Positions 37,247 through 54,085 of a stretch of DNA of 61,744 nt are shown here, in pieces. Both the position numbers and the translations under genes were made by a program. How positions within the stretch are numbered: the first letter of the stretch is position 1; each line of letters opens with the position of its first letter. This DNA is from Cyanobium sp. ATX 6F1 (GTDB taxonomy: Bacteria > Cyanobacteriota > Cyanobacteriia > PCC-6307 > Cyanobiaceae), in contig NZ_JAGQCS010000012.1 of the NCBI RefSeq assembly GCF_024346315.1, forward strand, positions 1 through 61,744, read 5' to 3'. The notes under the pieces are model-generated. The model did not search any database. It saw only the letters and a list, made by a program, of their open reading frames with translations, and had not been told where the DNA came from.

Positions 37247-37771
37247 TCAATGACGTTCTGCCGCCTGGGGCTGATAGATGGCCCCATCGAAGCGGTAGAG
37301 GGTGCGGCCGCGGGGCCCGTAGCGCGTGCGCAGATCGGCGTAGCCCAGGGTGCGGCTGCCCGGGACCTCCAGACCATCCTCGGCGCCACTCATCAATTCG
37401 CTGTAAACCCCGTCGGGCCGTCGCTCGACAATCCAGAAGGGCACCGAATGACCGCCGAAGTAAGCCGGGCAACGGCGGGTGGGGACCACAAGCCAGGCCG
37501 CCCCCGAGGGCGCCAGCCGCGGCATTGGCAGCGCCGCGAAAAACGCCTCGGCCCGCCGAAGGCCCACGGAGGGATCGGCCACGCAGCGGGCGAGCGCAGA
37601 CCGGTGCTCAGGATCGGCGGCAAGCTGACGGCTCAGCGCCGGCGGTGCCGGTGTGCGGGTGGAACCACGCATTAATGACTCAAGGTCGTAGCTCTGGGCG
37701 CGGGCAGCGCTGGCTCCGAGCAACGCCAAAAAAAGCGTCAAACCCACGGCATCAGAACTCCACCGTTTCAC
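37247..37771 (-). CDS. Exported hypothetical protein
   Basis: A 174-residue protein. A GTG at 37771 starts a good signal peptide (AVGLTLFLALLGASAARAQ) ending at an Ala-x-Ala site. The mature domain contains LARCVADPSVGLRRAEAFFAALP and ends with YGPRGRTLYRFDGAIYQ. Two Cys in the mature part could form a disulfide. I recognise no family. Confidence 0.65.
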   Translation of the reverse strand: MKRWSSDAVGLTLFLALLGASAARAQSYDLESLMRGSTRTPAPPALSRQLAADPEHRSALARCVADPSVGLRRAEAFFAALPMPRLAPSGAAWLVVPTRRCPAYFGGHSVPFWIVERRPDGVYSELMSGAEDGLEVPGSRTLGYADLRTRYGPRGRTLYRFDGAIYQPQAAERH

Positions 37772-37821
37772 CCGTCCAGCCCAGCGCCCGGCCGAGCGTA
37801 TCGAAGAAGTTGGGCCACTAG

Positions 37822-38313
37822 TCAGGCCCCACCGCAGGCGTGCTGGCTGTCTGGAAGTGTCCAGAATTCGCCCGTGCGCAGGTTGCGCGTGGTGTACCTC
37901 CGACCGCGCCGATCGTCCTTCGCGGCCTGCCGGCAATCGGGGATGAAGCTCAGGCACAGCTGCACCACATCCCCCTCGCGGCTGCGATGGATCGCCGGCA
38001 CGGTGTCATAGGAGACCTGGTAACCGCCGTTGGTGAAGGTGATGGCGGACCCCGATCCTGGGATGGGGATCAGGACGCCATTGGCATCGGTGGAGCTGAG
38101 CCGGTAGAGCACCTCCTTGACGCTGCTGCGGCGGCACTCCCCCAGCCGCTGGGGCAAGGGAGCTCCCTGGGCCCCGGCGGGAAGCAGCGCCACCGCGCTG
38201 AGCAGCCACGCCAGGCCCAGCGGCCGCCAGCTTGTGGTGCCCCTGATCCTGAGCAAGGTGATCCACGGCGCCGGTCCACTACGAAGGCGGGCAGGGGGGA
38301 ACTGAAACGCCAT
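37822..38313 (-). CDS. Exported hypothetical protein with four cysteines
   Basis: A 163-residue protein from the ATG at 38313. An unusually long basic N-region (about 30 residues) precedes the signal hydrophobic core (LGLAWLLSAVALLPAGAQG). The mature part has ECRRSSVKEVLYRLSS, LCLSFIPDCRQ and a C-terminal HACGGA, so four cysteines may form disulfides in the periplasm. No family recognised. It is divergent from the VanW gene with 190 bp between, where promoters for both should lie. Confidence 0.65.
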   Translation of the reverse strand: MAFQFPPARLRSGPAPWITLLRIRGTTSWRPLGLAWLLSAVALLPAGAQGAPLPQRLGECRRSSVKEVLYRLSSTDANGVLIPIPGSGSAITFTNGGYQVSYDTVPAIHRSREGDVVQLCLSFIPDCRQAAKDDRRGRRYTTRNLRTGEFWTLPDSQHACGGA

Positions 38314-38503
38314 CGGAGGCCCTCCACTCGAAGGGGACGATCGGCTCCGATTCTGGCCCTGCACCCACCGATGGACATCGGCCGCCAACTCCGTCGCTCA
38401 GGCCGTTCCAGGGCAGGGCCGGAAGCTTTGCCCTTCACCACCTGCCCGAGCGGGAGTGAACCGGTGCAACACCCCTAAACTGCCGATCCCCGGACCCCAG
38501 CCC

Positions 38504-39355
38504 GTGTCGAGGCGGCTGCTCTCCCAGCGCCACCCTTTCCTGTACCGCGCCTCGGTGGCGTTCCACCGCCTGCGGCGACGCCTGCGTGCCCGCTTCGATG
38601 GCCGCACCTACTGCACAGTCGCCAGCGTTGGCGCCGAACCGCTGCCTTACCGGATCAAGAAGCACCAGTCGCTGCTGATGCGCAAGCTCGGCAGCACCGA
38701 CCTGCGCCTTCAGCACAACAAGGTCGACAACCTGCGCCTGGTGGTGGCCAACCTCGATGGCGTGCTGTTGCGCCCGGGGGAAACCTTCTCCTTCTGTCAG
38801 CTGGTGGGCAAACCAAGCCGCCGGCGCGGTTTCAAGGAGGGGGTCGAGCTCTCGTTCGGGGTGGCGCGGCCGGGTATCGGCGGCGGCATCTGCCAATCGA
38901 CCAACCTGCTCTACTGGCTGGCGCTGCACGCGGAGCTCACGATCAGCGAGCGCCATCACCACACCTGTGATCCCTTCCCCGATGAGGGCCGGGTGCTGCC
39001 CTGGTCATCGGGGGCGGCTGTGTTTTACAACTACCTCGACTTCCAGCTCACCAATCCCACCCCGTCCACGTTTCAGATCCGCCTCTGGCTCACCGACACC
39101 CACCTGGTGGGGGAGCTGCGCAGCGATCGGGAACCTGCCTTCAAGTTCCACGTCTACGAGGAGAACCATCGCTTTCTCAAGGGCGAGAACGCCTACTTCC
39201 GCAGCAACGAGATCTGGCGCCGCGCCGTGAACCGTGCCAGCGGCCGCACCGAGCGCCATGAGCTGATCTCCCACAACTTCGGCAAGGTGCTCTACGAGCC
39301 GAGTGAGGAGATCAAGCGGGCTGCCGTGCCACTGGAGGAGACGGTGACGTTGTGA
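38504..39355 (+). CDS. VanW-domain protein
   Basis: A 283-residue protein (GTG start chosen at 38504; an earlier GTG at 38456 is less likely). Almost the whole length matches the VanW family: HNKVDNLRLVVANLDGVLLRPGETFSFCQLVG, then GGGICQSTNLLYWLAL and HHHTCDPFPD. VanW accompanies vancomycin-resistance genes in Gram-positive bacteria, but its biochemical role is not established, and most bacterial copies are unrelated to resistance. No clear signal peptide is seen. Its stop overlaps the GTG of the first CHAT gene, so it is the first gene of a five-gene operon. Confidence 0.9.
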   Translation: MSRRLLSQRHPFLYRASVAFHRLRRRLRARFDGRTYCTVASVGAEPLPYRIKKHQSLLMRKLGSTDLRLQHNKVDNLRLVVANLDGVLLRPGETFSFCQLVGKPSRRRGFKEGVELSFGVARPGIGGGICQSTNLLYWLALHAELTISERHHHTCDPFPDEGRVLPWSSGAAVFYNYLDFQLTNPTPSTFQIRLWLTDTHLVGELRSDREPAFKFHVYEENHRFLKGENAYFRSNEIWRRAVNRASGRTERHELISHNFGKVLYEPSEEIKRAAVPLEETVTL

Positions 39356-41946
39356 GGAGGAGGCAATGGCTGTCCGCGCTTGCGCCCCTGGTGCTGATGC
39401 TGGGAGCCCAGACCATGGCCATGAGCGCCATGCCATCAGACGTGCAGGAATGGGTGCGGCAGGCCGAGGCCCGTGAGAAGCAAGGAGCTTTTGGCGAAGC
39501 GGCTGAGTTCTGGAAACGGGTCGTCCGCCGCAGCGAGCAGGTGCAGGGCGGCAATCATCCCGATACCGCCACGGCGTTGAACCACCTCGGCGAGAACCTC
39601 TACTACATGGCCGCGTACGGCGAAGCTCTCATCGCCTTCGAACGGGCCCTGCGCATCCGCGAAAGCAGGCTCGGTCCCCGTCACCCGGACACGGGCACCT
39701 CCCTCCAGAACCTGGCTGCGCTCTATGAGAAGCAGGCCGCCTACGGCAAGGCTGAACCCCTTTACGAGCGGGCCCTTGAAATCCAGGAAGCGACCCTCGG
39801 GTCTCAGCACCTCGCCACGGCAACCACCCTCAACAACCTTGGAGGACTAAGCCGCCGCCAGGGAGCGATGGCCAGGGCCGAGGCCTTCTATAGGCGGGCC
39901 CTCGTGATCGTCGAACAACGGTTGGGGCCCAAGGATCCCCAGACCGCTGACACGCTGCACAATCTCGCCAGCCTGTATGCCAGCGAGGGCCAGGGCGAGA
40001 AAGCCGAGCCCCTCTTCCTCCGAGTGGTCGCCATCAGTGAGGCCACGCTCGGACCCAATCACCCGGAGACGGCCACGACCCTCAATTCCCTTGCGCTTCT
40101 GTACGACAAAAAGAAAGAGTTCTCCAAAGCGGAATCGCTCTACCGCCGCAGCCTCGCGATCCGGGACAAGGTCCTGGGGGCAGGCCACCCCGACACAGGA
40201 GCATCACTCAACAACCTGGCCCTATTCCTCTCCAGTCAAGGGCGATTCGAGGACGCAGAACCCCTGGCCCGGCGCGCCCTGGAGATCAAGGAACGAGCCT
40301 TGGGCCCGAACCACCTCGGCACCGCACTCTCGCTGGATACCTTGGCTGGCCTGCTCCTCAACCAGGGCGCCCATCAGTCCGCTGAACCTCCCCTCCGTCG
40401 CAGTATTTCGATTCAGGTCAGCTTCCTACAGAGGGAACTGCCCCTGTTGCCCGAATCCAGCCGCCTTCCCCAGATCCAGGCCCTGGGCAACGCCTGGGAG
40501 GCGGCCTACTCCCTGGCCGGCCGCACCCCCAGCGGCGCCGATCTCGCCCTGTTCACACGCCTCAACCGCCACGGCCTCCTCCAGGACATCGAACGCCGGC
40601 AGGCCCTGCTCGCCCGTGCACCAGGGCCCCAGCAGGCCCTCAGCCAGCGGATTGCCGCCCTCACCGCCCTCCTCGCCAACGTCGGACTGCCCCCCGCCCA
40701 GCGACAGCCCCTCCAGGACCAGCGCCAGCAGCTCGAGCAGCAGCTCTACCGCCAGCTCCCCGCCCTCCAGCCCAGGCTGGTGGAACCCGCTTCCGTGGCC
40801 CAGGCCCTGCCTCCCGATGGAGTGCTGATCGAGTTCCAGCGCTACCGGCCCTACGACGGGCGTGCCAACAAGGACCAGCGCTGGGGTGAACCCCGCTACC
40901 TCGCCCTCGTGCTCCAGCCCTCCGGCGCCATCACCGCCACTGATCTCGGGCCCGCCAGTGCCATCGATCCCCTCATCCGCCAGGCACTGGCCGTCAGTGA
41001 AAAGGGCGAGCGCCCCGCCGATCCCCTCTGGCAACAGGTCACCGTCAAGGTGCTCAGCCCCCTGCTCCCCCAGCTCGCCGGCCGCCGACGCTGGTTCCTC
41101 TCCCCCGATGGCGAGCTCAACCGCATCCCCTACGCCGCCCTCTCCGATCCAAGCAACCCCAGCCAGCGCCTGGTGCAGGCCGTGCAGCTGCGCCTGCTCA
41201 CCAGCGGCCGCGATCTGCTGCCAGGCGAGCCCAGCTCCGCTGGCCAGTTACCCCTGGTGGTGGCCGGCCCCGATTTCGGTGGTGCCCGCCCCTGGGCCGC
41301 CCTCCCCGCTGCCGCCCAGGAAGGCCAGCAGGTGGCCAGCCAGCTCAAGGCCACCTTGATCGCGGGAACTGCCGCGACCACCACAGCCCTCAAGCAGGCC
41401 CGCGGGCCCAGCGTGCTGCATGTGGCCAGCCATGGCTTCTTCCTGCCCGCCGCCAACGGCGGCGACCCCCTGCTCGATTCCGGTCTGGTGCTCGCCGGCG
41501 CCAACCGCAGCGGCCTGCCCAATCAGCCAAGCGCAGCCCCAACAACGGCAACTCGCAAGAGCGGTGCCGGCGACGATGGCTACCTCACCGCCAAGGAGGC
41601 CGCCCAGCTCCAGCTCGACGGCACCCAGCTCGTCGTCCTCTCCGCCTGCGACACCGGCTCCGGCACCGTTCAGGGCGGCGAGGGCGTCTACGGCCTCCAA
41701 AGAGCCCTCACCGTCGCCGGTGCCCGCTCCACACTCCTCTCCCTCTGGAAGGTCGACGACGACGCCACCGCTCAGTTCATGCGCCGCTTCTACGACCTCC
41801 TCAAGGCCGGCAAAGGACGCATGGAGGCCCTCGTTCAGGTCCAGGAGGAGTTCCGCACCAACCCTCCCGTGCGCGACTGGCGCGACCACAAGTACTGGGC
41901 CGCCTGGCAGCTCTCCGGTGATGTAGCACCGCTGCCGGGGCTGTGA
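39352..41946 (+). CDS. Exported TPR-CHAT protein (caspase-like), copy 1
   Basis: An 864-residue protein. The N-terminus (RRRQWLSALAPLVLMLGAQTM) looks like a signal peptide. About seven or eight 42-residue kinesin-light-chain-type TPR units follow (residues about 55-360, pattern LGxxHPxTAxxLNNLA). A linker with a coiled-coil-like QRQPLQDQRQQLEQQLYRQL region leads to a CHAT domain (about 500-860). The catalytic dyad of caspase-like proteases is present: His694 in HVASHGFF and Cys766 in VVLSACDTGSG. It may be a peptidase or signalling protein acting outside the cytoplasm, with the TPR array binding a partner. The GTG start overlaps the VanW stop, and its own stop overlaps copy 2. Confidence 0.92.
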   Translation: MRRRQWLSALAPLVLMLGAQTMAMSAMPSDVQEWVRQAEAREKQGAFGEAAEFWKRVVRRSEQVQGGNHPDTATALNHLGENLYYMAAYGEALIAFERALRIRESRLGPRHPDTGTSLQNLAALYEKQAAYGKAEPLYERALEIQEATLGSQHLATATTLNNLGGLSRRQGAMARAEAFYRRALVIVEQRLGPKDPQTADTLHNLASLYASEGQGEKAEPLFLRVVAISEATLGPNHPETATTLNSLALLYDKKKEFSKAESLYRRSLAIRDKVLGAGHPDTGASLNNLALFLSSQGRFEDAEPLARRALEIKERALGPNHLGTALSLDTLAGLLLNQGAHQSAEPPLRRSISIQVSFLQRELPLLPESSRLPQIQALGNAWEAAYSLAGRTPSGADLALFTRLNRHGLLQDIERRQALLARAPGPQQALSQRIAALTALLANVGLPPAQRQPLQDQRQQLEQQLYRQLPALQPRLVEPASVAQALPPDGVLIEFQRYRPYDGRANKDQRWGEPRYLALVLQPSGAITATDLGPASAIDPLIRQALAVSEKGERPADPLWQQVTVKVLSPLLPQLAGRRRWFLSPDGELNRIPYAALSDPSNPSQRLVQAVQLRLLTSGRDLLPGEPSSAGQLPLVVAGPDFGGARPWAALPAAAQEGQQVASQLKATLIAGTAATTTALKQARGPSVLHVASHGFFLPAANGGDPLLDSGLVLAGANRSGLPNQPSAAPTTATRKSGAGDDGYLTAKEAAQLQLDGTQLVVLSACDTGSGTVQGGEGVYGLQRALTVAGARSTLLSLWKVDDDATAQFMRRFYDLLKAGKGRMEALVQVQEEFRTNPPVRDWRDHKYWAAWQLSGDVAPLPGL
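40538..40772 (+). repeat. Block A of near-identical DNA, copy in CHAT gene 1
   Basis: This 235-bp block matches 43696-43930 with only 2 mismatches, while the DNA on both sides is clearly more diverged. Such a sharp, synonymous-level identity block between tandem paralogues points to recent gene conversion. Confidence 0.85.
41578..41918 (+). repeat. Block B of near-identical DNA, copy in CHAT gene 1
   Basis: This 341-bp block, which encodes the catalytic Cys region to near the C-terminus, matches 44739-45079 with 2 mismatches. Identity drops at both edges. The match explains why the two proteins are almost identical from DDGYLTAKEAAQL to AAWQLSGD. Confidence 0.88.
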
Positions 41947-44900
41947 GGAAGCGGGCGCTGCTGGCCGTGGTGGGAATCCTCGCGGCCCCGGCGCTGGCGG
42001 TCGCAGCGCCGGGGCCGATCCCTTCCCGCTCCGATTCCCGGCAGGCACAGGTGCCCTCCGCGTCCAGCCGCCGTCGCACGATCGCCCCAGCCGACCTCCT
42101 CAGCGAGGTGCACCGGGCACAAGCCCTGGAAGCCCGTGGCGCCATCGCGCAGGCAACGGCGCTGATGGAGCAGATCCTGCACTCGGTCGAGAAGCAGGCC
42201 GGCTCCAGCCACCCCACGACGGCCGCCGTGCTCTCCGCTCTGGCCCGCCTTCTCCAGAAGCAGGGGAACGGCAAGCGTGCCGAGGCTCTCCACCTGCGGG
42301 CTCTCGCCATCTTCGAGCGGCTCCACGGCCGCGGTCATGCCGACACGGCGACAGCGCTCCAATACCTGGCCGACTTCTACGACAACCAGCACCTCTTGCC
42401 TCAGGCCGAGTTCTTCCACCGCCGAGCTCTGGCAGCACAGGAGCAGGCCCTCGGACCCGATGACCCGGCCACGGCCACCTATCTGAACAACCTTGCCGTC
42501 CATCTGATGCGCCGGGGCGCTTACGACAATGCCGAGCCCCTGCTTCAGCGGGCACTCTCGATCGTCGAGCGGCACCACGGCCCTCTCCATCCTGACACCG
42601 CAACCACCCTCATCAACCTGGGCGGGCTCCATCAGGGACTTCATGACTACGACAGAGCCCAAGCCCTGTTCACCCGTGCGCTCCATGTGGCCGAAACCTC
42701 GCTGGGCGCGGGGAGTCCACTCGCGCTGCAGGCCCTCGGCAGCCTCGCCCTTCTCTCTCACATTCAGGGGGCCTACCCCGAAGCGGAAGTCCTCTACCGG
42801 AAGGTGCTGACCGGCATGGAGGAGAACCGGAGCACAGCTCCGACCGATGCGGCGAGGGTTCGGATAAACCTGGCTCAACTTCTTGTGCTCCAGTCCAGGT
42901 ACGGGCTGGCGGAACCACTCCTGCTGAGCGCCCTGGATCTGCAGCGCCGTGCCCTGGGTGCACGGCACCCGGAAATCGGCCTGACGCTGAACAACCTGGC
43001 CCAGCTCCACATCGATCAGGGAGCCTACGAGCGGGCAGAGCCGCTGCTCCGGCAAGCCCTTGCGATGAGCGAATCCACCCTGGGACCCTCCCATCCCGCC
43101 ACAGCTCTGGGGCTCAGCAACCTGGCCCAGCTCCACCAGCGCAGCGGGACCCCGGATCGAGCCGAGCCGCTCCTGCTGCGGGCCCTCGCCATCAACGAGA
43201 AGGTTCAGGGCCGTGAGGCTCCGGGCACAGCGGTCGTCCTCAACAACCTGGCTCAGAACTACCTGACACAAGGGGCATTCACGCGAGCTGAAGCGCTCCT
43301 GCTGCGTGCCCTCTCGATCAACGACAAAGCCTTCGGTGCCGATCACCCCACCTCATCGGGCTATCTCCTGAACCTGGCCGAGGCCTATCGGCAACAGGGT
43401 TCCGCCGTCCGCGCCGAACCGCTCTACCGCAGGGCCCTGATCATCCAGGAGCAACGGCTCGGAGCGGAGCATCCCGTGACGGCCAACACCCAGATCAACC
43501 TGGCCCTGCTCTACGACGGCCAGGGCGCCTCCGCCCGCGCCGAACCCCTGCTGCGCCAGGGCATCCGCGGCCAGACCCTCTTCCTTCAGCGCGAAATCCC
43601 CCTCCTTCCCGAATCCCGCCGCCTCCCCCAGATCCGCTCCCTCGGCAACGCCTGGGAAATCGCCTACAGCTACGCCGGCCGTTCCCCCGCCGGCTCCGAT
43701 CTCGCCCTGTTCACACGCCTCAACCGCCACGGCCTCCTCCAGGACATCGAACGCCGGCAGGCCCTTCTCGCCCGTGCACCAGGGCCCCAGCAGGCCCTCA
43801 GCCAGCGGATTGCCGCCCTCACCGCCCTCCTCGCCAACGTCGGACTGCCCCCCGCCCAGCGACAGCCCCTCCAGGACCAGCGCCAGCAGCTCGAGCAGCA
43901 GCTCTACCGCCAGCTGCCCGCCCTCCAGCCACGCCTCATCGAACCTGCTGCCGTGGCCAAGTCCCTGCCTTCCGATGGTGTGCTGATCGAGTTCCAGCGC
44001 TTCCAGCCCTTCCAGGGACGCCCCGGAACGGCCTCCCCCTGGGGAGAACCCCGCTACCTCGCCCTCGTCCTCCAGCCCTCGGGCGCCATCACCGCCACCG
44101 ACCTGGGGCCCGCCAGTGCCATCGATCCCCCCATCCGCGAGGCCCTCGCCGTCAGCGAAAAGGGCGAGCGTCCCGCCGATCCCCTCTGGCAGCAGGTCAC
44201 CGCCAAGGTGTTGGCTCCCCTGATGCCCCAGCTGGAGGGTCGCCGCCGCTGGTTTCTCTCCCCCGACGGCGAACTCAACCGCATCCCCTACGCCGCCCTC
44301 TCCGATCCCCGCAACCCCAGCCAGCGCCTGGTGCAGAACGTGCAGCTGCGCCTGCTCACCAGCGGCCGTGATCTCCTTCCCACCGATCCAGCCCCCAACG
44401 CCCAGCCACCCCTGGTCGTCGCCGGTCCCGATTTCGGCGGCGTCAAACCTTGGGCCGCCCTGCCCGCCGCCGCCAAGGAAGGACAACAGGTAGCCGACCA
44501 GCTCCGCGCACGCCTGATCGAGGGATCCGCCGCCACCGCCACCGCCCTGGAACGGACCCACGGGCCCCGGGTGCTGCACGTCGCCAGCCATGGTTTCTTC
44601 CTGCCCGCCCCCACCGGAGGTGATCCCCTGCTCGATTCCGGCCTCGTGCTGGCGGGCGCCAACCGCAGCGGCCTGCCCAACCAGCCCAAAGCCCCTGCCG
44701 GCCCCCCAACCACCCGCTCTGGCGCCTCCCTTGATGACGGCTACCTCACCGCCAAGGAGGCCGCCCAGCTCCAGCTCGATGGCACCCAGCTCGTCGTCCT
44801 CTCCGCCTGCGACACCGGCTCCGGCACCGTTCAGGGCGGCGAGGGCGTCTACGGCCTCCAAAGAGCCCTCACCGTCGCCGGGGCCCGCTCCACACTCCTC

Positions 44901-45107
44901 TCCCTCTGGAAGGTCGACGACGACGCCACCGCTCAGTTCATGCGCCGCTTCTACGACCTCCTCAAGGCCGGCAAAGGACGCATGGAGGCCCTCGTTCAGG
45001 TCCAGGAGGAGTTCCGCACCAACCCTCCCGTGCGCGACTGGCGCGACCACAAGTACTGGGCCGCCTGGCAGCTCTCCGGCGACACCTCTCCCTTGCCGGG
45101 GCTATGA
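41943..45107 (+). CDS. Exported TPR-CHAT protein (caspase-like), copy 2
   Basis: A 1054-residue paralogue of the preceding gene. A clear signal peptide (RKRALLAVVGILAAPALAVAA) precedes a longer TPR array (about residues 50-545, roughly 11-12 units) and a CHAT domain with His883 (HVASHGFF) and Cys956 (LSACDTGSG). It differs from copy 1 mainly in the TPR part, which has more units, so the two may recognise different partners with the same catalytic end. The GTG start overlaps the copy 1 stop, and its stop overlaps the next ATG. Confidence 0.92.
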   Translation: MRKRALLAVVGILAAPALAVAAPGPIPSRSDSRQAQVPSASSRRRTIAPADLLSEVHRAQALEARGAIAQATALMEQILHSVEKQAGSSHPTTAAVLSALARLLQKQGNGKRAEALHLRALAIFERLHGRGHADTATALQYLADFYDNQHLLPQAEFFHRRALAAQEQALGPDDPATATYLNNLAVHLMRRGAYDNAEPLLQRALSIVERHHGPLHPDTATTLINLGGLHQGLHDYDRAQALFTRALHVAETSLGAGSPLALQALGSLALLSHIQGAYPEAEVLYRKVLTGMEENRSTAPTDAARVRINLAQLLVLQSRYGLAEPLLLSALDLQRRALGARHPEIGLTLNNLAQLHIDQGAYERAEPLLRQALAMSESTLGPSHPATALGLSNLAQLHQRSGTPDRAEPLLLRALAINEKVQGREAPGTAVVLNNLAQNYLTQGAFTRAEALLLRALSINDKAFGADHPTSSGYLLNLAEAYRQQGSAVRAEPLYRRALIIQEQRLGAEHPVTANTQINLALLYDGQGASARAEPLLRQGIRGQTLFLQREIPLLPESRRLPQIRSLGNAWEIAYSYAGRSPAGSDLALFTRLNRHGLLQDIERRQALLARAPGPQQALSQRIAALTALLANVGLPPAQRQPLQDQRQQLEQQLYRQLPALQPRLIEPAAVAKSLPSDGVLIEFQRFQPFQGRPGTASPWGEPRYLALVLQPSGAITATDLGPASAIDPPIREALAVSEKGERPADPLWQQVTAKVLAPLMPQLEGRRRWFLSPDGELNRIPYAALSDPRNPSQRLVQNVQLRLLTSGRDLLPTDPAPNAQPPLVVAGPDFGGVKPWAALPAAAKEGQQVADQLRARLIEGSAATATALERTHGPRVLHVASHGFFLPAPTGGDPLLDSGLVLAGANRSGLPNQPKAPAGPPTTRSGASLDDGYLTAKEAAQLQLDGTQLVVLSACDTGSGTVQGGEGVYGLQRALTVAGARSTLLSLWKVDDDATAQFMRRFYDLLKAGKGRMEALVQVQEEFRTNPPVRDWRDHKYWAAWQLSGDTSPLPGL
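43696..43930 (+). repeat. Block A of near-identical DNA, copy in CHAT gene 2
   Basis: Partner of the block at 40538-40772 (235 bp, 2 mismatches). It covers the region encoding FTRLNRHGLLQDIERRQ through the coiled-coil-like linker. Confidence 0.85.
44739..45079 (+). repeat. Block B of near-identical DNA, copy in CHAT gene 2
   Basis: Partner of the block at 41578-41918 (341 bp, 2 mismatches). It covers the catalytic Cys segment of the CHAT domain. Confidence 0.88.
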
Positions 45108-45958
45108 GAGGTAAACACACTGAACCCACCCACCCAGCTGCCGTCGTGTCCCAGCCCTCGACCCCCGGGTTCCTGATCTCCGCACTGTTGCTGGCCGCCA
45201 GCGCCGGCGCCACCTTGGCCCCAGCGGCCGTGGCCGCCCCGAATCCTGCGACCGACCTGCAGGCAGCGGTTCAGGCCGTCAGCGGGCCCCTGCAGCAGGC
45301 CTGGAAGGGGGATCCAGCCACCGCCGCCCTGCCCTGGCCGGCCCTGCGGCTGGTCCCTGCGGGCAACGGTCTTCTCTCCAGCTGCCCCAGCGCCCAGGGC
45401 GCCAGCGCCGACACCAGTGCCCTCTACTGCCCGGCCAGTGGCGAGCTGCTGCTGGAGGCGAAAGGATTGAGCAGCGATCGGAAGCGCTACGGACCGTGGG
45501 GAATCGCCTACTGGGTCGCCTCCGGCCTGGGCCAGGCCTTCCTCGCCCGACAGAAGGCCGGCACCGCCCTAGAGGGACCGGCTCTCAATCTCCAGGCCAT
45601 CTGTCTGGCGGGAGTGCTACTGGATTCCAGCCCGGGACTCAAGCCCAGCACCCCCGCCCAGAAACTCTCGCCGGCGCGCTCCGCCTACGGCAGCGCCGAT
45701 GCGGCCCTGCAGGGCACCCGAAGCCAGCGGGCCTACGCCCTGCTCAGCGGTTTCGGCGCCACCGCCAGCCCCTGCACGGCCGCGGCCATGGAGGGCCTGG
45801 CGAACGACCGCGTCAGCGATCTGAAGCTGTTGGCCGAGGTGGGCGAGGAGCCCAACCGGGCCTTGAGCAGCGTCAGCAACGCCCCAACAGCCTCCTGCCG
45901 CAAACCCCTGCGCTGCCCCCGCCGGGTCGGTGAGGTCTTCGCCGCCGCCCGGCCCTGA
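45104..45958 (+). CDS. Exported pseudo-metallopeptidase, YpfJ/neutral zinc metallopeptidase-like without zinc site
   Basis: A 284-residue protein with a signal segment (FLISALLLAASAGATLAPAAVAA). The mature part follows the YpfJ-type zinc peptidase pattern: ALYCPASGELLLEAKGL, then AYWVASGLGQAFLARQ, LNLQAICLAGVLL, and GTRSQRAYALLSGFGA with a final Cys. In active members the second piece holds HExxH; here it reads SGLGQ, so both His and the Glu are gone. The ELQADC ligand box reads NLQAIC. It should therefore be catalytically dead and may act as a binding protein or decoy. Its ATG overlaps the CHAT 2 stop. The family call is by pattern and needs a profile search. Confidence 0.7.
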   Translation: MRGKHTEPTHPAAVVSQPSTPGFLISALLLAASAGATLAPAAVAAPNPATDLQAAVQAVSGPLQQAWKGDPATAALPWPALRLVPAGNGLLSSCPSAQGASADTSALYCPASGELLLEAKGLSSDRKRYGPWGIAYWVASGLGQAFLARQKAGTALEGPALNLQAICLAGVLLDSSPGLKPSTPAQKLSPARSAYGSADAALQGTRSQRAYALLSGFGATASPCTAAAMEGLANDRVSDLKLLAEVGEEPNRALSSVSNAPTASCRKPLRCPRRVGEVFAAARP

Positions 45959-45961
45959 GCC

Positions 45962-46786
45962 ATGGCCGAGCCAGAGCAGCCGCCAACCGCAACGCCCCGC
46001 GCAGCGGCAGCTACCCCCGCGGCGTCCAAGGATCCGGTGCCCTCCTGGGTGCGCTCGAACGTGCTGCACAACTGGATTCAATCGGTCGGCATCGTGGTGG
46101 CGGCCACCTGGGGGGCCTACACCTTCATCTGGAAGGAGGTCCTGGTGCCGGACATGGCCCCCGCCAGCCTCAGCCTGCAGATCGCGGTGAGCCCCAGCCG
46201 TCGGCTGCGGCCGACCCAGACAACGGGCCAGGCCAACCTGGAACTGGAAGTGGAGATCACTGCTTCCAATTCCAGCAGCCGCAGGCTGTACCTGCTACCC
46301 AGCGTCTGGCAGCTGAAGGGGATCCGACTCCATCAGGATGGCGAGGATCCTGCCTTCGCAGAGAGGGCCACCGAGGTGCTGATTCTGCTGGGCCCCCAGG
46401 ACCGGGCCGAGCGCTTCGCCCCCTCAGACCCCGGCCGCACCCTCTCCACTGGCTGGCTCTTCCTCGACGATGTGATTCACCCCGGCGAGAAGCTGAGCCG
46501 CAACCTGCTGTTGCGATTGCCGGCCAAGAGCTTCGAGGCCGCCAGCTTCGATCTGCTGATCCCCACGCTCACCCAGCCGCCGAAGCCATCCCTGTTCGGG
46601 GGCCGGGCCCTGCGCTGGTCCTACGACCCCCGGGCCACGGCCGCCATGGAACTAGTGCCCAATCTCTGCCCTAGGGATCCTTCCAAGGACTGCGCCCCCA
46701 TCAGCCTTGAGGCCCTCACCCACCAGGTGAAGGCCTTCGATCCCAAGTCAATCTTCTTCAAGGCCACACGGGAAGTGGCGCTGTAG
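45962..46786 (+). CDS. Single-pass membrane protein of the CHAT operon
   Basis: A 274-residue protein. A Pro/Ala-rich, probably cytoplasmic N-terminus (about 35 residues) is followed by one membrane helix (SVGIVVAATWGAYTFIW) and a large C-terminal domain with beta-like stretches (LELEVEITASNSSSRRLYLLPSVW). It begins 3 bp after the pseudo-peptidase gene, so it belongs to the same operon. I do not recognise the domain. It could anchor the exported CHAT or pseudo-peptidase proteins at the membrane. Confidence 0.75.
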   Translation: MAEPEQPPTATPRAAAATPAASKDPVPSWVRSNVLHNWIQSVGIVVAATWGAYTFIWKEVLVPDMAPASLSLQIAVSPSRRLRPTQTTGQANLELEVEITASNSSSRRLYLLPSVWQLKGIRLHQDGEDPAFAERATEVLILLGPQDRAERFAPSDPGRTLSTGWLFLDDVIHPGEKLSRNLLLRLPAKSFEAASFDLLIPTLTQPPKPSLFGGRALRWSYDPRATAAMELVPNLCPRDPSKDCAPISLEALTHQVKAFDPKSIFFKATREVAL

Positions 46787-47444: not shown

Positions 47445-48884
47445 ATGTTCACGGATTACAGGCCCCACAAGGGCTACGACGAGTACTTCAGCGCCACGGC
47501 CCAACCCCGCCAGGCCCTCAAGCCCCTGCTTTCCTCCCTCGGGCAGCTAGGCCTCGATCAGCTCAACACCAGCCACGCCGCGGCGGAGATCCTGCTCAAG
47601 CGCCTCGGGGCCACCTTCCGCCTGAACGACTCAGGTGACAAGGGCAGCGAACGCATCCTGCCCTTCGATCCCCTGCCCCGCCTGATCTCCACCAGCGCCT
47701 GGCAGATCCTGGAGAAGGGCCTGGTGCAGCGCCTGGAGGCCATCGACGCCTTCCTGGGCGACGTGTATGGACCCCAGAAGATCCTCCGCGACGGCGTTGT
47801 GCCCCGCGAAGACGTAGAGAGCTCCCAGGGCTGGCGCCCCCAGATGAACGGCTTCAAGCCACCCTTGGGCCGCTGGTGCCACGTCTCCGGCCTGGATCTG
47901 ATTCGCGACGGCTCGGGGACCTGGCGGGTGCTGGAGGACAACCTGCGCTGCCCCTCCGGCGTGGCCTACTTCCTGGAGAACCGGCGCGTCATGAAGCGCA
48001 TGTTCCCCAGCCTGTTCGCCGGTCGGGCCGTGCAACCGATCGACGACTACGCCTCCCACCTGCTGCGCACCCTGCGGGAGCTGGCCCCCTGGACCGACTC
48101 CCCCAAGGTGGTGCTGCTCACTCCCGGGGTGTTCAACAGCGCCTACTTCGAGCACAGCTACCTGGCCCAGCAGATGGGCATCCAGCTGGTGGAGGGCCGT
48201 GATCTGGTCTGTGAGGGCAATCGGGTGTGGATGCGCAGCACCGCCGGGCTGGAGGTGGTGGATGTGATCTATCGCCGCATCGACGATGACTTCCTCGATC
48301 CAGCTGTCTTCCGCAGCGATTCGATGCTGGGAGTGCGGGGGCTGATGGAGGCCTACCGGGCCGGCCGGGTCGCGATTGCCAATGCCCCAGGCACCGGCGT
48401 CGCCGACGACAAGCTCATCTACGCCTACGTGCCGGAGATGATCCGCTACTACCTGGATGAAGAGCCGATCATCGAAAACGTTCCCACCTACATCTGCTCC
48501 CGCGAAGACGACCGTGCCTACGTGCTGGCCCACCTCAAGGAGCTGGTGGTGAAATCAGTGGCGGAGGCCGGGGGCTACGGCATGCTTATCGGTCCCCATT
48601 CCACGGAAGAGGACATCCTTTCCTTCGCCGCCAAGATTCAGGCCGACCCGCGCAACTTCATCGCCCAGCCCACGTTGGATCTCTCCACGGTGCCGTCCCT
48701 TAGTGAAGGAGAGCTCTATCCCTGCCATGTGGATCTGCGCCCCTATGTGCTCCGCGGCCAGGATGCCTGGGTGAGCCCCGGGGGCCTCACCCGCGTCGCC
48801 CTTCGCCGGGGCTCCTTGGTGGTCAACTCCTCCCAGGGGGGCGGCTGCAAGGACACCTGGATCGTGGACGAAGCCTCATGCTGA
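47445..48884 (+). CDS. Circularly permuted ATP-grasp protein (DUF404/DUF407 type)
   Basis: A 479-residue ATP-grasp protein. Features include YDEYFSATAQPRQ, the family core DLIRDGSGTWRVLEDNLRCPSGVAYFLENR, and VKSVAEAGGYGMLIGPHS. These enzymes are predicted peptide or amide ligases, and comparative genomics places them with alpha-E and transglutaminase proteins in a predicted peptide-making and modifying system whose product is unknown. It starts the operon and overlaps the alpha-E gene by 7 bases. Confidence 0.93.
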   Translation: MFTDYRPHKGYDEYFSATAQPRQALKPLLSSLGQLGLDQLNTSHAAAEILLKRLGATFRLNDSGDKGSERILPFDPLPRLISTSAWQILEKGLVQRLEAIDAFLGDVYGPQKILRDGVVPREDVESSQGWRPQMNGFKPPLGRWCHVSGLDLIRDGSGTWRVLEDNLRCPSGVAYFLENRRVMKRMFPSLFAGRAVQPIDDYASHLLRTLRELAPWTDSPKVVLLTPGVFNSAYFEHSYLAQQMGIQLVEGRDLVCEGNRVWMRSTAGLEVVDVIYRRIDDDFLDPAVFRSDSMLGVRGLMEAYRAGRVAIANAPGTGVADDKLIYAYVPEMIRYYLDEEPIIENVPTYICSREDDRAYVLAHLKELVVKSVAEAGGYGMLIGPHSTEEDILSFAAKIQADPRNFIAQPTLDLSTVPSLSEGELYPCHVDLRPYVLRGQDAWVSPGGLTRVALRRGSLVVNSSQGGGCKDTWIVDEASC

Positions 48885-49864
48885 GCCGTGTCGCCGACTC
48901 GCTTTACTGGATCAATCGCAATGTGGAGAGGGCCGAGAACATCTCCCGCTTCGTCGAAGTCAGCGAGGCTATGGCGCTCGACTGCCCCCCCGGCAGCGCC
49001 GAACCATGGCTGCCCCTGATCGACGCCTGCGGCGATCGAGAGCTGTTCGACAAGCTCTACCCCCAGGGCCAGCCCGAGGATGTGGTGCGCTTTCTGGTGC
49101 GGGAGGAGGGCAACCCCAGCAGCATCGTCAACTGCATCGCCGTGGCCCGGGAAAACTCCCGTCAGATCCGCGAGGTGATCACCACCGAGATGTGGGAGCA
49201 GATCAACGGCCTCTACTGGACGTTGCAGGAGAGCGACACCTTCTGGGCGCAGCCCCCCCAGGAGCAGCTGCGGGAGATCCGCCGTGCCTGCCAGCTCTAC
49301 TACGGCATCACCGACGCCACCTTGAGCCGCGATCTCTCCTGGCACTTCTCCCGCCTGGGCCGGCTGATCGAGCGTGCCGACAAGACCAGCCGCATCCTGG
49401 ATGTGAAGTACTTCCTGCTGCTGCCCAGCCCGGAGGATGTGGGCGGTGTTCTTGATGAACTCCAGTGGATTTCACTGCTGCGCTGCACGGGGGCCTACCA
49501 GATGTTCCGCCAGGCCCAGCAGCAGGGCATCACCCCCAAGGCCGTGGCGGAATTTCTGCTGCTCGATCCGATCTTCCCCCGCTCGCTGCGCTACTGCCTG
49601 GAGGGCATCAACCGGACCCTGCGCGTGATTCGCGGCAATCCCGTGCCCGGTCCACCCGATGATCTGGAGTGCCTCAGCGGCCTGATGCTGGCCTCCTGGA
49701 GTTTCGTGCGGATCGATGAACTGATGGCCCAGGGGCTCCACGAGGCCATCGATCAATTTCAGAGCGATCTCAACCGGCTGCACGCGCAGATCGACGGGCG
49801 GTACTTTGTCATTTCCACCCCCTCCCTCCCCAGTCCACCGGAGCCGGCATGCGCGCCCGACTGA
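48878..49864 (+). CDS. Alpha-E domain protein (DUF403)
   Basis: A 328-residue all-helical protein. The start MLSRVADSLYWINRNVERAENISR and the internal FSRLGRLIERADKTSRILDVKY are the diagnostic repeats of the alpha-E family, which always accompanies the permuted ATP-grasp. The biochemical role is unknown. It overlaps the ATP-grasp gene (7 bp) and the transglutaminase gene (16 bp). Confidence 0.94.
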   Translation: MLSRVADSLYWINRNVERAENISRFVEVSEAMALDCPPGSAEPWLPLIDACGDRELFDKLYPQGQPEDVVRFLVREEGNPSSIVNCIAVARENSRQIREVITTEMWEQINGLYWTLQESDTFWAQPPQEQLREIRRACQLYYGITDATLSRDLSWHFSRLGRLIERADKTSRILDVKYFLLLPSPEDVGGVLDELQWISLLRCTGAYQMFRQAQQQGITPKAVAEFLLLDPIFPRSLRYCLEGINRTLRVIRGNPVPGPPDDLECLSGLMLASWSFVRIDELMAQGLHEAIDQFQSDLNRLHAQIDGRYFVISTPSLPSPPEPACAPD

Positions 49865-50748
49865 CCCACACGCTCACCTACCGCTACAGCGCACCGGTGC
49901 AGCTCGGGCCCCATCGGGTCTGCCTCAAGCCCCGCGGCCACGGATTCCAGCGACTGATCAGCTTCGCGCTGCGCTTTTCGCCGGAACCCAGCCGCTCCTG
50001 GCCCCTGGTGGCCGCCAGCGGCGATGAGATCCAGCGGGCCTGGTTTCTGGGCGACACCGACAACTTTGAGCTCCAATCCTTGAGTGAAGTGGAAACCTCA
50101 ATGCCACCTCCCCTGGAGATCTGCCTGGAGCAGAATCGCCTCGCCCTCCCCTATCCGGTGGGGCATCTCAACGGCGATCTGATGGGCAGCCTTGAGGGCT
50201 GGCTGCCCAATGGGCAGCACGACCCTGCCGCCGTGGAGCTGGCCCAGGAGGCCCTGATGGGCAGTGACCAGCAGGCGCTGATGTTCCTGGCCCAGCTGGT
50301 GGAAACGATCCAGGACCGGGTCAAGTACACCCAGCGCCACTCCGGTCCAGCCTGGCCCGCCGGCCGCACCCTCAAGGAGCGCGTGGGTTCCTGCCGCGAC
50401 CTGGCGATGCTGATGATCGAGGCCTGCCGCTGCGTGGGGCTGCCGGCCCGGTTCGTCAGCGGCTACCACCTGGTGGAACCCGCACCGGAACGCTACGACC
50501 TCCACGCCTGGGCGGAGGTCTACCTGCCCGGAGCCGGCTGGCGCGGCTTCGACCCCAGCGGCATGGGGGCAATCGATGACCGCTACATCCTCCTGGCCAC
50601 CTCCTCGAAACCGGACCTCACCGCGGCCGTCAGTGGCACCTACTCCGGGCCACCGGGGGTGGAGAGCAAGTTCAAATGGTCGATCACGGCCGAAGTGCTC
50701 GACGAGACTCACCTGAGCGTCCCGATTGCCCCCAGCCTGAGCCGATGA
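49849..50748 (+). CDS. Transglutaminase-like cysteine peptidase/transferase
   Basis: A 299-residue protein with the bacterial transglutaminase N-terminal beta domain (LTHTLTYRYSAPVQLGPHRVCLKP) and the catalytic core. The Cys is in GSCRDLAMLMIEACR, the His in YDLHAWAEVYLPG and the Asp in GFDPSG, so the Cys-His-Asp triad is complete. No signal peptide is visible. It probably hydrolyses or cross-links peptides made by the ATP-grasp partner. In many bacteria it is fused to DUF2126; here the DUF2126 part is a separate gene with a diguanylate cyclase gene between. Confidence 0.92.
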   Translation: MRARLTHTLTYRYSAPVQLGPHRVCLKPRGHGFQRLISFALRFSPEPSRSWPLVAASGDEIQRAWFLGDTDNFELQSLSEVETSMPPPLEICLEQNRLALPYPVGHLNGDLMGSLEGWLPNGQHDPAAVELAQEALMGSDQQALMFLAQLVETIQDRVKYTQRHSGPAWPAGRTLKERVGSCRDLAMLMIEACRCVGLPARFVSGYHLVEPAPERYDLHAWAEVYLPGAGWRGFDPSGMGAIDDRYILLATSSKPDLTAAVSGTYSGPPGVESKFKWSITAEVLDETHLSVPIAPSLSR

Positions 50749-51995
50749 CCCTCGCTGGCCATCCGCTTCAGTCGAACCTGGCCGACGAGGTCAACCAGCG
50801 CCTGATCCGAATCATGGCGTTGGTGGGACTGCTCGGCAGCGCCCTGATCGGGATGTCCACAGGCTCCCTGGCCCTGATCGCAGCCAACCGCAGCATCGTG
50901 CGTCAGAGCGATCAGATCAGTGCCTCGATCAGCACCTTCCTGCAGGCGGAAAGTAGCAAAAGCGAACAGCAGCGAATGGTGCAGCTTTACCGCAGCCAGA
51001 CCGTCAGCCCTGACACCGACAGCCTCGATCAGCTGGTGGTGTTCGACGGGAGTGGCCAGGTGCTGCTGAGCTCGAGGCCATCCCTGGTGGGCCGCTCCCT
51101 CGCGGAGCTGCTCCAGCGCGGCGACCTTGGCGACGGTGTTGATCGCGCCAGCCTGCGCTGCTTCGCCCAGCCCACCCCGGGCTGCCGCCTGGCCAGCCGA
51201 TCGTTCCACCTGCCCTGGCAACGCACCCAGACCGAGTGGCGGCTGCTGAACCAGCTCAGCTTCGACGCCACCCCAAGGGAAACGCGTTACCTGGTGCTGA
51301 TGACCTTCAACGCTGAGGCCACCAACCTGCTGGTGTTTCAGCAGATGCTGCTGCTGGCGAGCCTCAGCATCCTGATCCTGGGCAGTCTGCTGACCGTGCT
51401 GACCCTGACCCTCAAGCAGAGCTTGCTTCCCGGATTGCATCAGGTGGCCGAAACCGATGGGCTGACGGGCCTGGCCAATCGCCGCACCTTCATGGAAATC
51501 AGCGAAAAGATGCTGAACCGGGGCCTCGATGAGGGCCTGCCCTTTGTGCTCACGGTGATCGACATCGATTTCTTCAAACGCGTCAACGACACCTACGGCC
51601 ACGTCTGTGGGGATGCGGTGCTCAAGGCGGTGGCGCAACAGATTCGGGTCTCCGTGCGTGAGCGTGACCTGGTGGGCCGGCTGGGGGGCGAGGAATTCGG
51701 CTTGGTCCTGTCCAGCAGCACCACCACGGCCGATTCGATTCTCGAGCGCGTGCGTCAGCAGGTGGAAGCCTCACAGATCGATTGGGAGGGTGAACCCGTG
51801 AAGGTGACGATCAGCCTGGGGGCCGCCAGCAGCGAACACCTGGACCACTCCCTCGATCACCTCTATGCCGCCGCCGACACGGCTCTTTATCAGGCCAAAT
51901 CGGAGGGGCGGAACCGGGTGCGCTGGGCGGCGGCTCCCCGCCCTGCGTCCAGCTCCGCCAACAACCCCTCCCCCCCACAAACGGACCGCCGATGA
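50745..51995 (+). CDS. Membrane diguanylate cyclase (GGDEF)
   Basis: A 416-residue protein. Two membrane helices (about residues 22-45 and 202-224) flank an extracytoplasmic segment of about 150 residues that does not match a domain I know and probably senses a signal. The C-terminal GGDEF domain is complete: TDGLTGLANRRTF, FFKRVNDTYGH, the active GGEEF, and the inhibitory RxxD site (RERD) five residues before it. It should make c-di-GMP. Its start and stop each overlap the flanking genes by 4 bases (ATGA), so it is an integral operon member. Confidence 0.95.
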   Translation: MTLAGHPLQSNLADEVNQRLIRIMALVGLLGSALIGMSTGSLALIAANRSIVRQSDQISASISTFLQAESSKSEQQRMVQLYRSQTVSPDTDSLDQLVVFDGSGQVLLSSRPSLVGRSLAELLQRGDLGDGVDRASLRCFAQPTPGCRLASRSFHLPWQRTQTEWRLLNQLSFDATPRETRYLVLMTFNAEATNLLVFQQMLLLASLSILILGSLLTVLTLTLKQSLLPGLHQVAETDGLTGLANRRTFMEISEKMLNRGLDEGLPFVLTVIDIDFFKRVNDTYGHVCGDAVLKAVAQQIRVSVRERDLVGRLGGEEFGLVLSSSTTTADSILERVRQQVEASQIDWEGEPVKVTISLGAASSEHLDHSLDHLYAAADTALYQAKSEGRNRVRWAAAPRPASSSANNPSPPQTDRR

Positions 51996-54085
51996 CCACT
52001 CCTCCCTGGCTCACCGGGTCCCTGGCCGTCGCCAGTGAGATCGATCGCCGCCTGGCCGCCGCCGGCGTGAAGCTCACCCTCGGTGGGGAACCCACCTACG
52101 TGCCGGACCTGCCGGAAGGGGCCGAGTGGACCGTGGCCGCCGATGGCCCCACCAAGCTTGGTTACGCGCGGGCCCTGGGCCTGGAACTCCAGCGCCGAGC
52201 CTGGCCCAGCAGCACATTGATCTATTGCCCGGGCAAGCGTTACGACGGCGAGGTGAACCCCCGTTGGGCCCTGCGCCTGATCATCGGAGCCGACGGAGAA
52301 CCGATCGTGCGCTGGCCCCAGCAGGGAATCAGCGACGAGGCCGCCGCGGCCCTGGGCCCCCTGCTTGAGGCCGATGCTCTGCCCTTCCTGGAGGCCATCG
52401 GCGCGTCCCTGGGTTGCGGCCTGCGGCCCCTGGCCCTGCGGGACACCCTCGACCCGGAGCGGCGGGTCTGGGCCGCCCCCCTCTGCCACCACGACCCTGA
52501 ACTCGATCCGGAGGCCCCACCGGGTTGGGAGGCCGCCGAATGGCCGCTGGATGAACCCCTGAGGGAGCTGCTGGGCGCCGCCGGACCGGCGGGTCTGCGC
52601 TTGCCCCTGCAGCATTTCCCCGAGGGTGTGCTGCGCCAGGTGCTCACCCTGGAGGTGCACCCCGGCGGCTGGAGCCTGTTCCTGCCGCCCCTGGCGCGGG
52701 AGCCCCTGGAGCAGCTGCTGCGCTTGATCGCCGCCGCCAGCGCGGGGAAAAGCCAACCGCTGCTGAGCGGTGTGCTGCCCCTGGACATCACCGGCCACTG
52801 GCAGGTGCTGGGGCTGACCGCCGATCCGGGTGTGCTGGAGGTGAACCTGCCGGTGTGCGCCAACTGGCAGGCCTATGCCGGCTGGATGGTGAGGCTCGAG
52901 GAAGCGGGGGCGACGGTGGGCCTGCGCTCCTGGAAGGACGACGATGGTCACATCGTCGGCACCGGCGGCGGCAACCACCTGCTCTGGGGCGGCCCCGATC
53001 TGGAAACGAACCCCTTCTTCAGCCGCCCCGCCTGGCTGGTGGGGGTGCTGCGCTTCTGGCAGCGCCATCCCAGCCTGGCCTACCTGTTCAGCAACCCCTC
53101 GGTGGGTCCCGCCTCCCAGGCCCCGCGGCCCGATGAGGGCAGTGCCTCCTGGCTCGATCTGGAGCTCGCCCATCAGGTGATCGAAGACCTGCCAGAGGGC
53201 GATCAACGCGTGCTGATCAGCGAAACCCTGCGCCACCTCCATGCCGACCGCAGTGGCAACACCCACCGCAGTGAGATCAGCATCGACAAATTCTGGAATC
53301 CCGCCTGGGCCGCCGGCTGCCAGGGACTGATCGAGTTTCGGGCGATCGAAACCCTGCCGCGCACCGAATGGATCGGGGCCATCGCCCTGCTCTGGAGCGC
53401 CCTGGCGGTGCATCTGCTGGAGCCAGCGCACCGGCCGGAGACGATGGAGCCCTTCGGCCCCCGGCTCCACGACGCGCTGATGCTGCCCAGCGCCCTGCTG
53501 GCCGACCTGGAGGCGGTGCTGGCCCGGCTGGCGGCCGATGGACTGATGCTCGATCCCAAGACCTTCCGTACCATCTGGGACTGGCAGAACCCACGGCTGC
53601 TGGCCTGGGAGCAGGGGGAGGCACGGCTGGAGGTCCGCCGGGCCCGGGAAGCCTGGCCATTGCTCTGCGACACCCCGGTGGAAGGGGGCAGCACCAGCCG
53701 CTTCGTCGACAGCTCCCTGCGCCGCTTCGAACTGATTTCCTCCGCGGCCTTCCGCCAGCGCTTCGCGGTGGTGCTGAACGGGCGACCGCTGACCCTGGGA
53801 GAACGGCCGGTGGCCGTGCGTTATCGCCAGGAGCAGCTCTACCCCTGCCTGCATCCCGCGATCGCCCCCCATGTGCCCCTGGAGCTGGCGGTGCTGGAGA
53901 CCGGCGCCGGCTCGGACGCGGCACTGGAGGGCTACTGGACCCTGGCCAGCGAGCGCGACGGCTTCCGTCCGGAGACCCCTAGCGACGGGAGCTCTCCCGG
54001 CGAAGGGCTGAAGGCGGCCCCCTGGCGCGCCGCCAACCCCGGGGACGTCACGGTCGATCTGCGCCTGGAACCCCTGCCCGCCTGA
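51992..54085 (+). CDS. DUF2126 protein, large transglutaminase partner
   Basis: A 697-residue protein that matches the C-terminal half of the large bacterial transglutaminase-like proteins (DUF2126): GVKLTLGGEPTYVPDL, LIYCPGKRYDGEVNPRW, TGTGGGNH-like GTGGGNHLLWGGP, and IEFRAIETLP. The GGGNH segment and several conserved acids suggest an enzyme active site, but the reaction is unknown. It completes the ATP-grasp, alpha-E, transglutaminase set. Confidence 0.92.
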   Translation: MTTPPWLTGSLAVASEIDRRLAAAGVKLTLGGEPTYVPDLPEGAEWTVAADGPTKLGYARALGLELQRRAWPSSTLIYCPGKRYDGEVNPRWALRLIIGADGEPIVRWPQQGISDEAAAALGPLLEADALPFLEAIGASLGCGLRPLALRDTLDPERRVWAAPLCHHDPELDPEAPPGWEAAEWPLDEPLRELLGAAGPAGLRLPLQHFPEGVLRQVLTLEVHPGGWSLFLPPLAREPLEQLLRLIAAASAGKSQPLLSGVLPLDITGHWQVLGLTADPGVLEVNLPVCANWQAYAGWMVRLEEAGATVGLRSWKDDDGHIVGTGGGNHLLWGGPDLETNPFFSRPAWLVGVLRFWQRHPSLAYLFSNPSVGPASQAPRPDEGSASWLDLELAHQVIEDLPEGDQRVLISETLRHLHADRSGNTHRSEISIDKFWNPAWAAGCQGLIEFRAIETLPRTEWIGAIALLWSALAVHLLEPAHRPETMEPFGPRLHDALMLPSALLADLEAVLARLAADGLMLDPKTFRTIWDWQNPRLLAWEQGEARLEVRRAREAWPLLCDTPVEGGSTSRFVDSSLRRFELISSAAFRQRFAVVLNGRPLTLGERPVAVRYRQEQLYPCLHPAIAPHVPLELAVLETGAGSDAALEGYWTLASERDGFRPETPSDGSSPGEGLKAAPWRAANPGDVTVDLRLEPLPA

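Follow-up and report, generated by a model that had tools for sequence, protein, structure and literature searches.

The analysis of the window, which comprises 61,744 nucleotides of Cyanobium sp. ATX 6F1 and corresponds to an entire contig from a genome of 2.96 Mb, revealed a head-to-tail arrangement (within 38504-46786) of two TPR-CHAT genes, a gene encoding a metallopeptidase homolog devoid of its zinc site (gene 4) and a gene encoding a membrane protein (gene 5, or MEM). It is very likely that the CHAT genes, gene 4 and gene 5 make up a genuine module. As a working interpretation, to which we assign somewhat less than even confidence, their products might constitute a three-part envelope protease module, encompassing an exported, ligand-triggered and caspase-like CHAT protease, a metallopeptidase partner turned pseudoenzyme and a membrane tie. 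The features of the locus are listed in Table 1.

Table 1. Genes of the CHAT locus in the window, in order of position
Feature	Coordinates	Strand	Length (aa)	Description
VanW-family gene	38504..39355	+		PF04294; 4-base overlap with TPR-CHAT 1
TPR-CHAT 1	39352..41946	+	864	N-terminus resembling a signal, then seven TPR units of 42 residues recognized by motif, a linker and CHAT at the C-terminal end
TPR-CHAT 2	41943..45107	+	1054	Signal-like N-terminus, longer TPR region, CHAT
Gene 4	45146..45958	+		Pseudo-metallopeptidase related to PF04228; probable GTG start at 45146, frame open from ATG 45104
Gene 5 (MEM)	45962..46786	+		Predicted from a model: long N-terminal helix and C-terminal Ig/FN3-like beta-sandwich

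Profile searches were in agreement with the gene families proposed in the initial annotation, identifying a VanW protein (PF04294), two proteins combining TPRs with a CHAT domain (PF12770) and two proteins without any family over cut-off. The spacing described there, with three overlaps of 4 bases and one gap of 3 bases, was also recovered in the open reading frames, with the third overlap holding only if gene 4 starts at the upstream ATG. In near relatives, the start of gene 4 is the codon matching the window GTG, located 41-43 bases from the CHAT frame (starts having been chosen by the analyst), and in a sister species the gene-4 frame opens only past the CHAT stop. The VanW frame is itself open from 38456, with 38504 being an inner GTG. 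Co-transcription, as in the proposed single unit, is a possibility suggested by the tight spacing. No sigma-70-like promoter was found at the locus, and terminator-like matches numbered 5, versus 4.8 in shuffled sequences. Beyond the locus, two small genes at 37247-38388 on the reverse strand match no Pfam family and occupy positions conserved in G001, the nearest relative of the window among the compared genomes. A run of genes headed by a circularly permuted ATP-grasp gene (47445-54085) is likewise conserved in G001, and the genes that follow ATP-grasp presumably encode alpha-E, transglutaminase-like and other proteins.

The distribution of gene 4 was analyzed in 400 genomes of the family, using a profile built from seven aligned relatives, out of eight picked by sequence, with G029 (a weak match with stops) omitted. 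Up to six candidates were scored per genome, and matches were obtained in at least 80 of these genomes. The strong set, all of which was read, comprises at least 42 gene-4 matches (E-values up to 4.4e-37) in 38 genomes; about 50 weaker matches were left out, apart from five read as controls. A CHAT gene was located within 3 kb of gene 4 in 36 of the 42 loci, and in the stretch read around none of 25 other PF04228-type loci (five plus twenty, two of them on contigs shorter than 5 kb). Among the loci without CHAT at this distance, L019 presents a CHAT gene at 3.9 kb and L091 a short CHAT at 4.9 kb, while the contig ends inside a TPR gene in L018. No CHAT was found in L023 and L103, which form the first split on the midpoint-rooted tree. 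CHAT is likewise missing at L102 (1098-1892), where a zinc-type gene 4 is followed by a gene of outer-membrane-like appearance, and an integrase-like gene is located upstream at a distance of two genes, both labels having been assigned by eye.

Gene order varies considerably among the 42 loci. The arrangement CHAT-gene 4-MEM was observed in 18 loci, gene 4-MEM-CHAT in two, CHAT-gene 4 in nine, gene 4-CHAT in six and a reversed CHAT preceding gene 4 in two, with one convergent locus and four presenting no such order. Clustering of the open reading frames within 8.5 kb of gene 4 placed gene 4 in 42 loci and CHAT/TPR-type proteins in 40, in 13 genera each, and MEM in 20 loci from four genera. The remaining clusters among those listed span at most four genera, and several appear to be antisense shadows of module genes. 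All the CHAT-linked gene-4 loci found belong to one family of picocyanobacteria, as would be expected if unrelated genes had been brought together by chance or in frozen synteny. We regard that explanation as highly improbable, since linkage persists despite the varied order and orientation, no flanking gene is as widely shared, and the 25 control loci contain no CHAT gene in the stretch read. The genes of the module also appear to diverge in concert: gene-4 and MEM identities are correlated over 171 pairs with r = 0.98, a value that includes shared descent, and two genomes hold two modules each, diverged in all genes at once.

Several uncharacterized genes were observed next to zinc-type modules. 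Genes of about 405 and 435 amino acids recur in their vicinity (L019:3163-5684, L020:6373-8908), in seven loci from four genera and six loci from three genera, respectively. No family was detected over cut-off for the uncharacterized genes beside zinc-type modules, except for a CHASE2 gene near L021.

Members of PF04228 are putative metallopeptidases, and we take this putative neutral zinc metallopeptidase family to be YpfJ-like. The window gene 4 does not itself match PF04228 at an E-value of 0.1. Zinc-type relatives of gene 4 in G034, G040, G003 and G030 match this family over cut-off in all four cases tested, and present the HExxH and ELQADC motifs. Single-sequence searches with gene 4 retrieved the relatives in G034, G040 and G003 with E-values of 8.0e-18, 1.4e-13 and 3.5e-12, and the alignment displays nine invariant columns over 31 rows. 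Judging from these comparisons, gene 4 shares descent with PF04228 members. In the window protein, the HExxH position reads SGLGQ, ELQADC reads NLQAIC and the third-ligand Glu is missing. The initial description of an exported-type zinc peptidase without its zinc site hence fits the sequence comparison, which identifies a homolog whose ligands are gone.

An AlphaFold model of gene 4, generated with 31 of the 42 rows, presented a mean pLDDT of 85.2 and a pTM of 0.79. Foldseek returned nothing at an E-value of 0.001 with this model, and re-ranking of its list with VIA-align 2 placed zincin peptidases at the top (best 3c37, Z 7.7, rmsd 4.0, 143 aligned residues). A Z-score of 7.7 proves little on its own, and the kinship of gene 4 is based on sequence. 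A search of PDB chains with the gene-4 profile, up to an E-value of 1, yielded no convincing relative (best E 0.48).

The HExxH motif is kept in 18 of the 42 gene-4 loci and absent in 24. When the zinc columns were left out of tree building, the sequences lacking the motif, 24 in number, all fell on one side of a single branch (support 99/97), so that the loss of the zinc site maps as one change. In this clade the third-ligand column contains Asn in 20 of 24 sequences, and the nearby Leu and Cys are found in all 24. The dN/dS ratio of gene 4 ranges from 0.28 to 0.44 among four species, indicating that the dead form is retained rather than decaying; on these estimates, purifying selection acts on the dead peptidase. 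The loss of catalysis in a sequence that remains constrained would suit a decoy, and it is conceivable that the CHAT protease has gene 4 as its natural substrate, derived from an old peptidase and cleaved so that a signal is released, in the way Csx29 cleaves Csx30. A co-encoded substrate has a TPR-CHAT precedent in that pair (PMC10028731). When the g30 outgroup is set aside, every one of the 16 zinc-type members nonetheless has the full zinc site, which would be odd for a mere substrate, and we consider this explanation rather unlikely.

The product of gene 5 had been proposed to be a single-pass membrane protein, and its model bears this out, with one long N-terminal helix (residues 33-65) followed by a beta domain. 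This model, for which 17 of 20 MEM sequences were used, has a mean pLDDT of 78.8 and a pTM of 0.64. The gene-5 profile did not match any PDB chain up to an E-value of 1. The best Foldseek matches were ApaG-type proteins (E 5e-5), and VIA-align 2 gave the top rank, with a Z of 11.9, to beta-sandwich domains of factor XIII; we take these matches only as suggestive of an Ig/FN3-like fold. The dN/dS ratio of gene 5 lies between 0.15 and 0.24 among four species.

Gene 5 was identified in 20 of the 24 loci with a dead gene 4 (pseudo loci) and in none of the 18 zinc loci, and searching with the full profile at an E-value of 10 did not uncover any further gene 5 in the 42 loci. The pseudo loci without MEM are L018, L104, L119 and L121, some of them near contig ends, and these few absences are losses or unread contig ends. 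Because MEM presence requires three changes on the tree and zinc loss one, the association of gene 5 with the dead form amounts to little more than one event. All 14 strong gene-5 matches in 300 family genomes were located inside such modules, with four weak ones elsewhere. Among named genomes, 17 of 20 gene-5 matches were cyanobacterial, all 17 accompanied by CHAT and a dead gene 4, although 16 of these 17 seem to repeat loci already counted. In the stretch read, no gene 4 and no CHAT accompanied the non-cyanobacterial relatives (L165-L167). In one of these, from a gammaproteobacterial MAG (L165:5971-9119), the gene-5 relative directly precedes a gene whose product, of 792 aa, matches Nal1_C below threshold. 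L022 (G048:C224:3838-4425) contains a remote relative of gene 5 that has a TGA in frame, in a genome without a gene-4 match.

CHAT domains bearing a His/Cys dyad are cysteine proteases, and TPRs bind peptides or proteins. The two window CHAT proteins score 219.7 and 222.3 bits with PF12770, for which the cut-off is 24, with the CHAT domain of TPR-CHAT 1 spanning residues 561-857 of 864. The dyads noted initially (His694/Cys766 in TPR-CHAT 1 and His883/Cys956 in TPR-CHAT 2) are intact, and the dyad was detected in 38 of 39 CHAT sequences longer than 350 aa, the 39th being cut by a contig end; this count omits four shorter CHAT pieces. CHAT matches were obtained in 101 of 300 family genomes. A search of PDB chains with TPR-CHAT 1 retrieved kinesin light chain and other TPR structures, and a profile of 19 CHAT domains (A4) did not match any PDB chain at an E-value of 0.01. 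The window genome encodes three other CHAT proteins of 388-427 aa (L024:7415-8692, L025:4632-5798 and L026:9145-10428), two of which present a signal-like start by eye. Their genes adjoin open reading frames of 1,500 to 2,900 aa, some of them cut by the end of the stretch and one matching DUF5650 repeats.

Signal peptides had been proposed for both CHAT proteins of the locus. Signal-like N-termini were indeed identified in both using a hydropathy heuristic (other than SignalP), and also in their relatives, with export itself being a prediction. Among 54 other genes of the window, the same heuristic flags seven, including one that by eye resembles CTP synthase, a cytoplasmic enzyme. For gene 4, the heuristic recognizes a full signal only with translation from the ATG, which provides two Lys/Arg before the hydrophobic stretch; translation from the GTG yields none there. 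The signal-like stretch stands at the very beginning of the open frame in some low-GC relatives, L093 and L096 among them. The CHAT pair is hence predicted to reside in the envelope. Signal-like N-termini on both hydrolases, together with intact catalytic residues on both in zinc-type loci, would also agree with plain extracellular digestion, in which two secreted enzymes scavenge peptides or break up competitors and the second died in one clade. The persistence of a dead enzyme in 24 loci, under constraint among the four species measured, is difficult to accommodate in such a scheme, and large TPR arrays with a membrane partner would fit regulation better; we deem digestion improbable.

The two TPR-CHAT copies in the window are 86.4% identical in their CHAT part and 40.0% in their TPR part. 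At the DNA level, a conversion-like tract (40422-41918 and 43580-45079) presents 87.6% identity over 1506 columns and, in the CHAT part, a 197-base identical run, in contrast with mostly 44-68% in 75-column blocks outside it. Comparison of the window with the sister species gave identities of 77.0% for gene 4, 90.5% for gene 5 and, for the first copies, 75.4% for CHAT and 44.8% for TPR. The TPR arrays of G001 copy 2 and G370 are 79.4% alike, and the CHAT part of window copy 1 is closest, among other genomes, to that of G370 (80.8%), a pattern that points to exchange of TPR and CHAT parts or to CHAT conversion. Mean identities across the pseudo clade are 0.46-0.48 for gene 4, 0.47 for MEM, 0.49 for TPR and 0.60-0.61 for CHAT, with TPR values possibly affected by repeat misalignment. 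Among close pairs, the TPRs are the least conserved part in L112/L114 and L106/L107, but not in L110/L111, where they are more alike than gene 4 or MEM. Fast TPR change thus appears clear from these identities near the window, and is unproven across the rest of the clade.

These patterns bear on a possible role in conflict or self/non-self recognition, in which exported TPR receptors would diversify against ligands from phages, predators or rival strains and trigger CHAT-mediated damage. Around the window, that is, between it and its closest relatives, TPR parts have diverged, and the window's own two CHAT parts have been homogenized; this is in line with such a role, as are the two or three strong gene-4 loci present in each of three g6 genomes. 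Described conflict systems include CHAT domains and variable repeat sensors (PMC10907252). Across the clade, TPRs are no more diverged on average than gene 4 or MEM, which lends less weight to the conflict reading. Moreover, the five genes, of which genes 4 and 5 match no family, yielded no STAND, NACHT, TIR or gasdermin match and no vWA or MoxR partner of the kind known from gasdermin or STAND/VMAP systems, and PADLOC-DB returned only a general TPR match. We therefore judge a conflict role to be distinctly unlikely. Its most elaborate form, an exported system resembling an immune receptor in which TPR turnover, CHAT conversion and a pseudoenzyme switch on a membrane beta-sandwich would combine to release caspase-like proteolysis upon ligand binding outside the inner membrane and signal inward, must be considered speculative and of low probability.

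The sister species presents both CHAT genes, gene 4 and gene 5 in identical order, with flanks common to the window, and its VanW gene is a pseudogene with stops and frame changes. A profile built from the window VanW protein matched only the window and the sister remnants, and did not detect VanW in the other 40 of the 42 gene-4 loci. The protein matches the general PF04294 domain over cut-off, does not reach the NCBIfam equivalog for glycopeptide-resistance accessory proteins (178.7 bits against a cut-off of 365) and does not present a signal-like N-terminus under the hydropathy heuristic. VanW was rejected as a module member, being broken in the sister species and undetected in the other 40 loci; as far as locus comparison can tell, it is a passenger.

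The five-gene unit put forward in the initial annotation is hence incorrect, because VanW is a passenger, most related loci contain one TPR-CHAT gene by gene 4, and 18 of the 42 loci carry an HExxH gene 4 without gene 5. Conservation of the neighborhood in relatives extends to CHAT and gene 4, plus gene 5 in most of the dead clade, and does not include VanW. The broader proposal of one system, formed by a CHAT pair, a dead metallopeptidase and a membrane protein, survives once VanW is removed, supported by linkage that persists under changing gene order, by the one-time origin of the dead clade and by the co-divergence of the genes.

Under the envelope protease interpretation that we favor, the TPR array would bind a ligand in the periplasm or outside the cell, and binding would activate the C-terminal CHAT protease. 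Gene 4 would control, or be controlled by, this protease. As long as the zinc site is intact, the two enzymes might act on each other or in series, and in the window clade the dead peptidase could serve as a scaffold, an inhibitor or a partner released by cleavage, with gene 5 possibly tying it to the inner membrane. The module offers a comparable pair, in which an exported-looking CHAT protein has an intact zinc peptidase as its neighbor in other picocyanobacteria and in small genomes of low GC, probably Prochlorococcus-like to judge from size and GC, and a dead peptidase plus a membrane protein as its neighbors in Cyanobium-type species. This pair allows one to ask how a protease partner becomes a pseudoenzyme. 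CHAT proteases are best known for intracellular work, and Csx29 is a cytoplasmic protein; the module bears on whether CHAT proteases also act in the bacterial envelope.

No account of linkage between CHAT and a zinc metallopeptidase, whether intact or dead, was found in the literature searched. Secreted CHAT proteins are not new, given the mention of "secreted CHAT domain-containing proteins" in the marine Synechococcus island Syn_GI122 in a 2020 genome study, whose passage on this island names no metallopeptidase, pseudo-peptidase or membrane partner (PMC7522525). PF04228 peptidases present HExxH and the additional Glu, both of which the window gene 4 lacks, and its subfamily is linked to CHAT, unlike the 25 other loci read. 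M16 peptidases combine active and inactive halves of one protease, and pseudo-orthocaspases are caspase relatives without the dyad. Both have other folds, and the dead partner in the window is a zinc-peptidase relative beside a dyad-bearing CHAT protein. HetF of Anabaena is a CHAT protein and divisome component with a conserved active site needed for function, and its CHAT domain is N-terminal (aa 1-555) (PMC8406250). The window proteins carry theirs at the C-terminal end, preceded by TPRs and a signal-like start.

No Cas7-11-like gene was found among the ten window genes scanned, nor as a widely shared neighbor. The closest parallel in architecture is with Csx29 and Csx30 of Craspase (type III-E CRISPR), where TPRs and a CHAT protease are likewise joined to a linked partner, Csx30, described as both substrate and sigma-factor inhibitor (PMC10028731). 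Csx29 is triggered by RNA within the Cas7-11 complex, whereas the window CHAT proteins present signal-like N-termini and have a zinc-peptidase homolog as their partner (PMC10028731).
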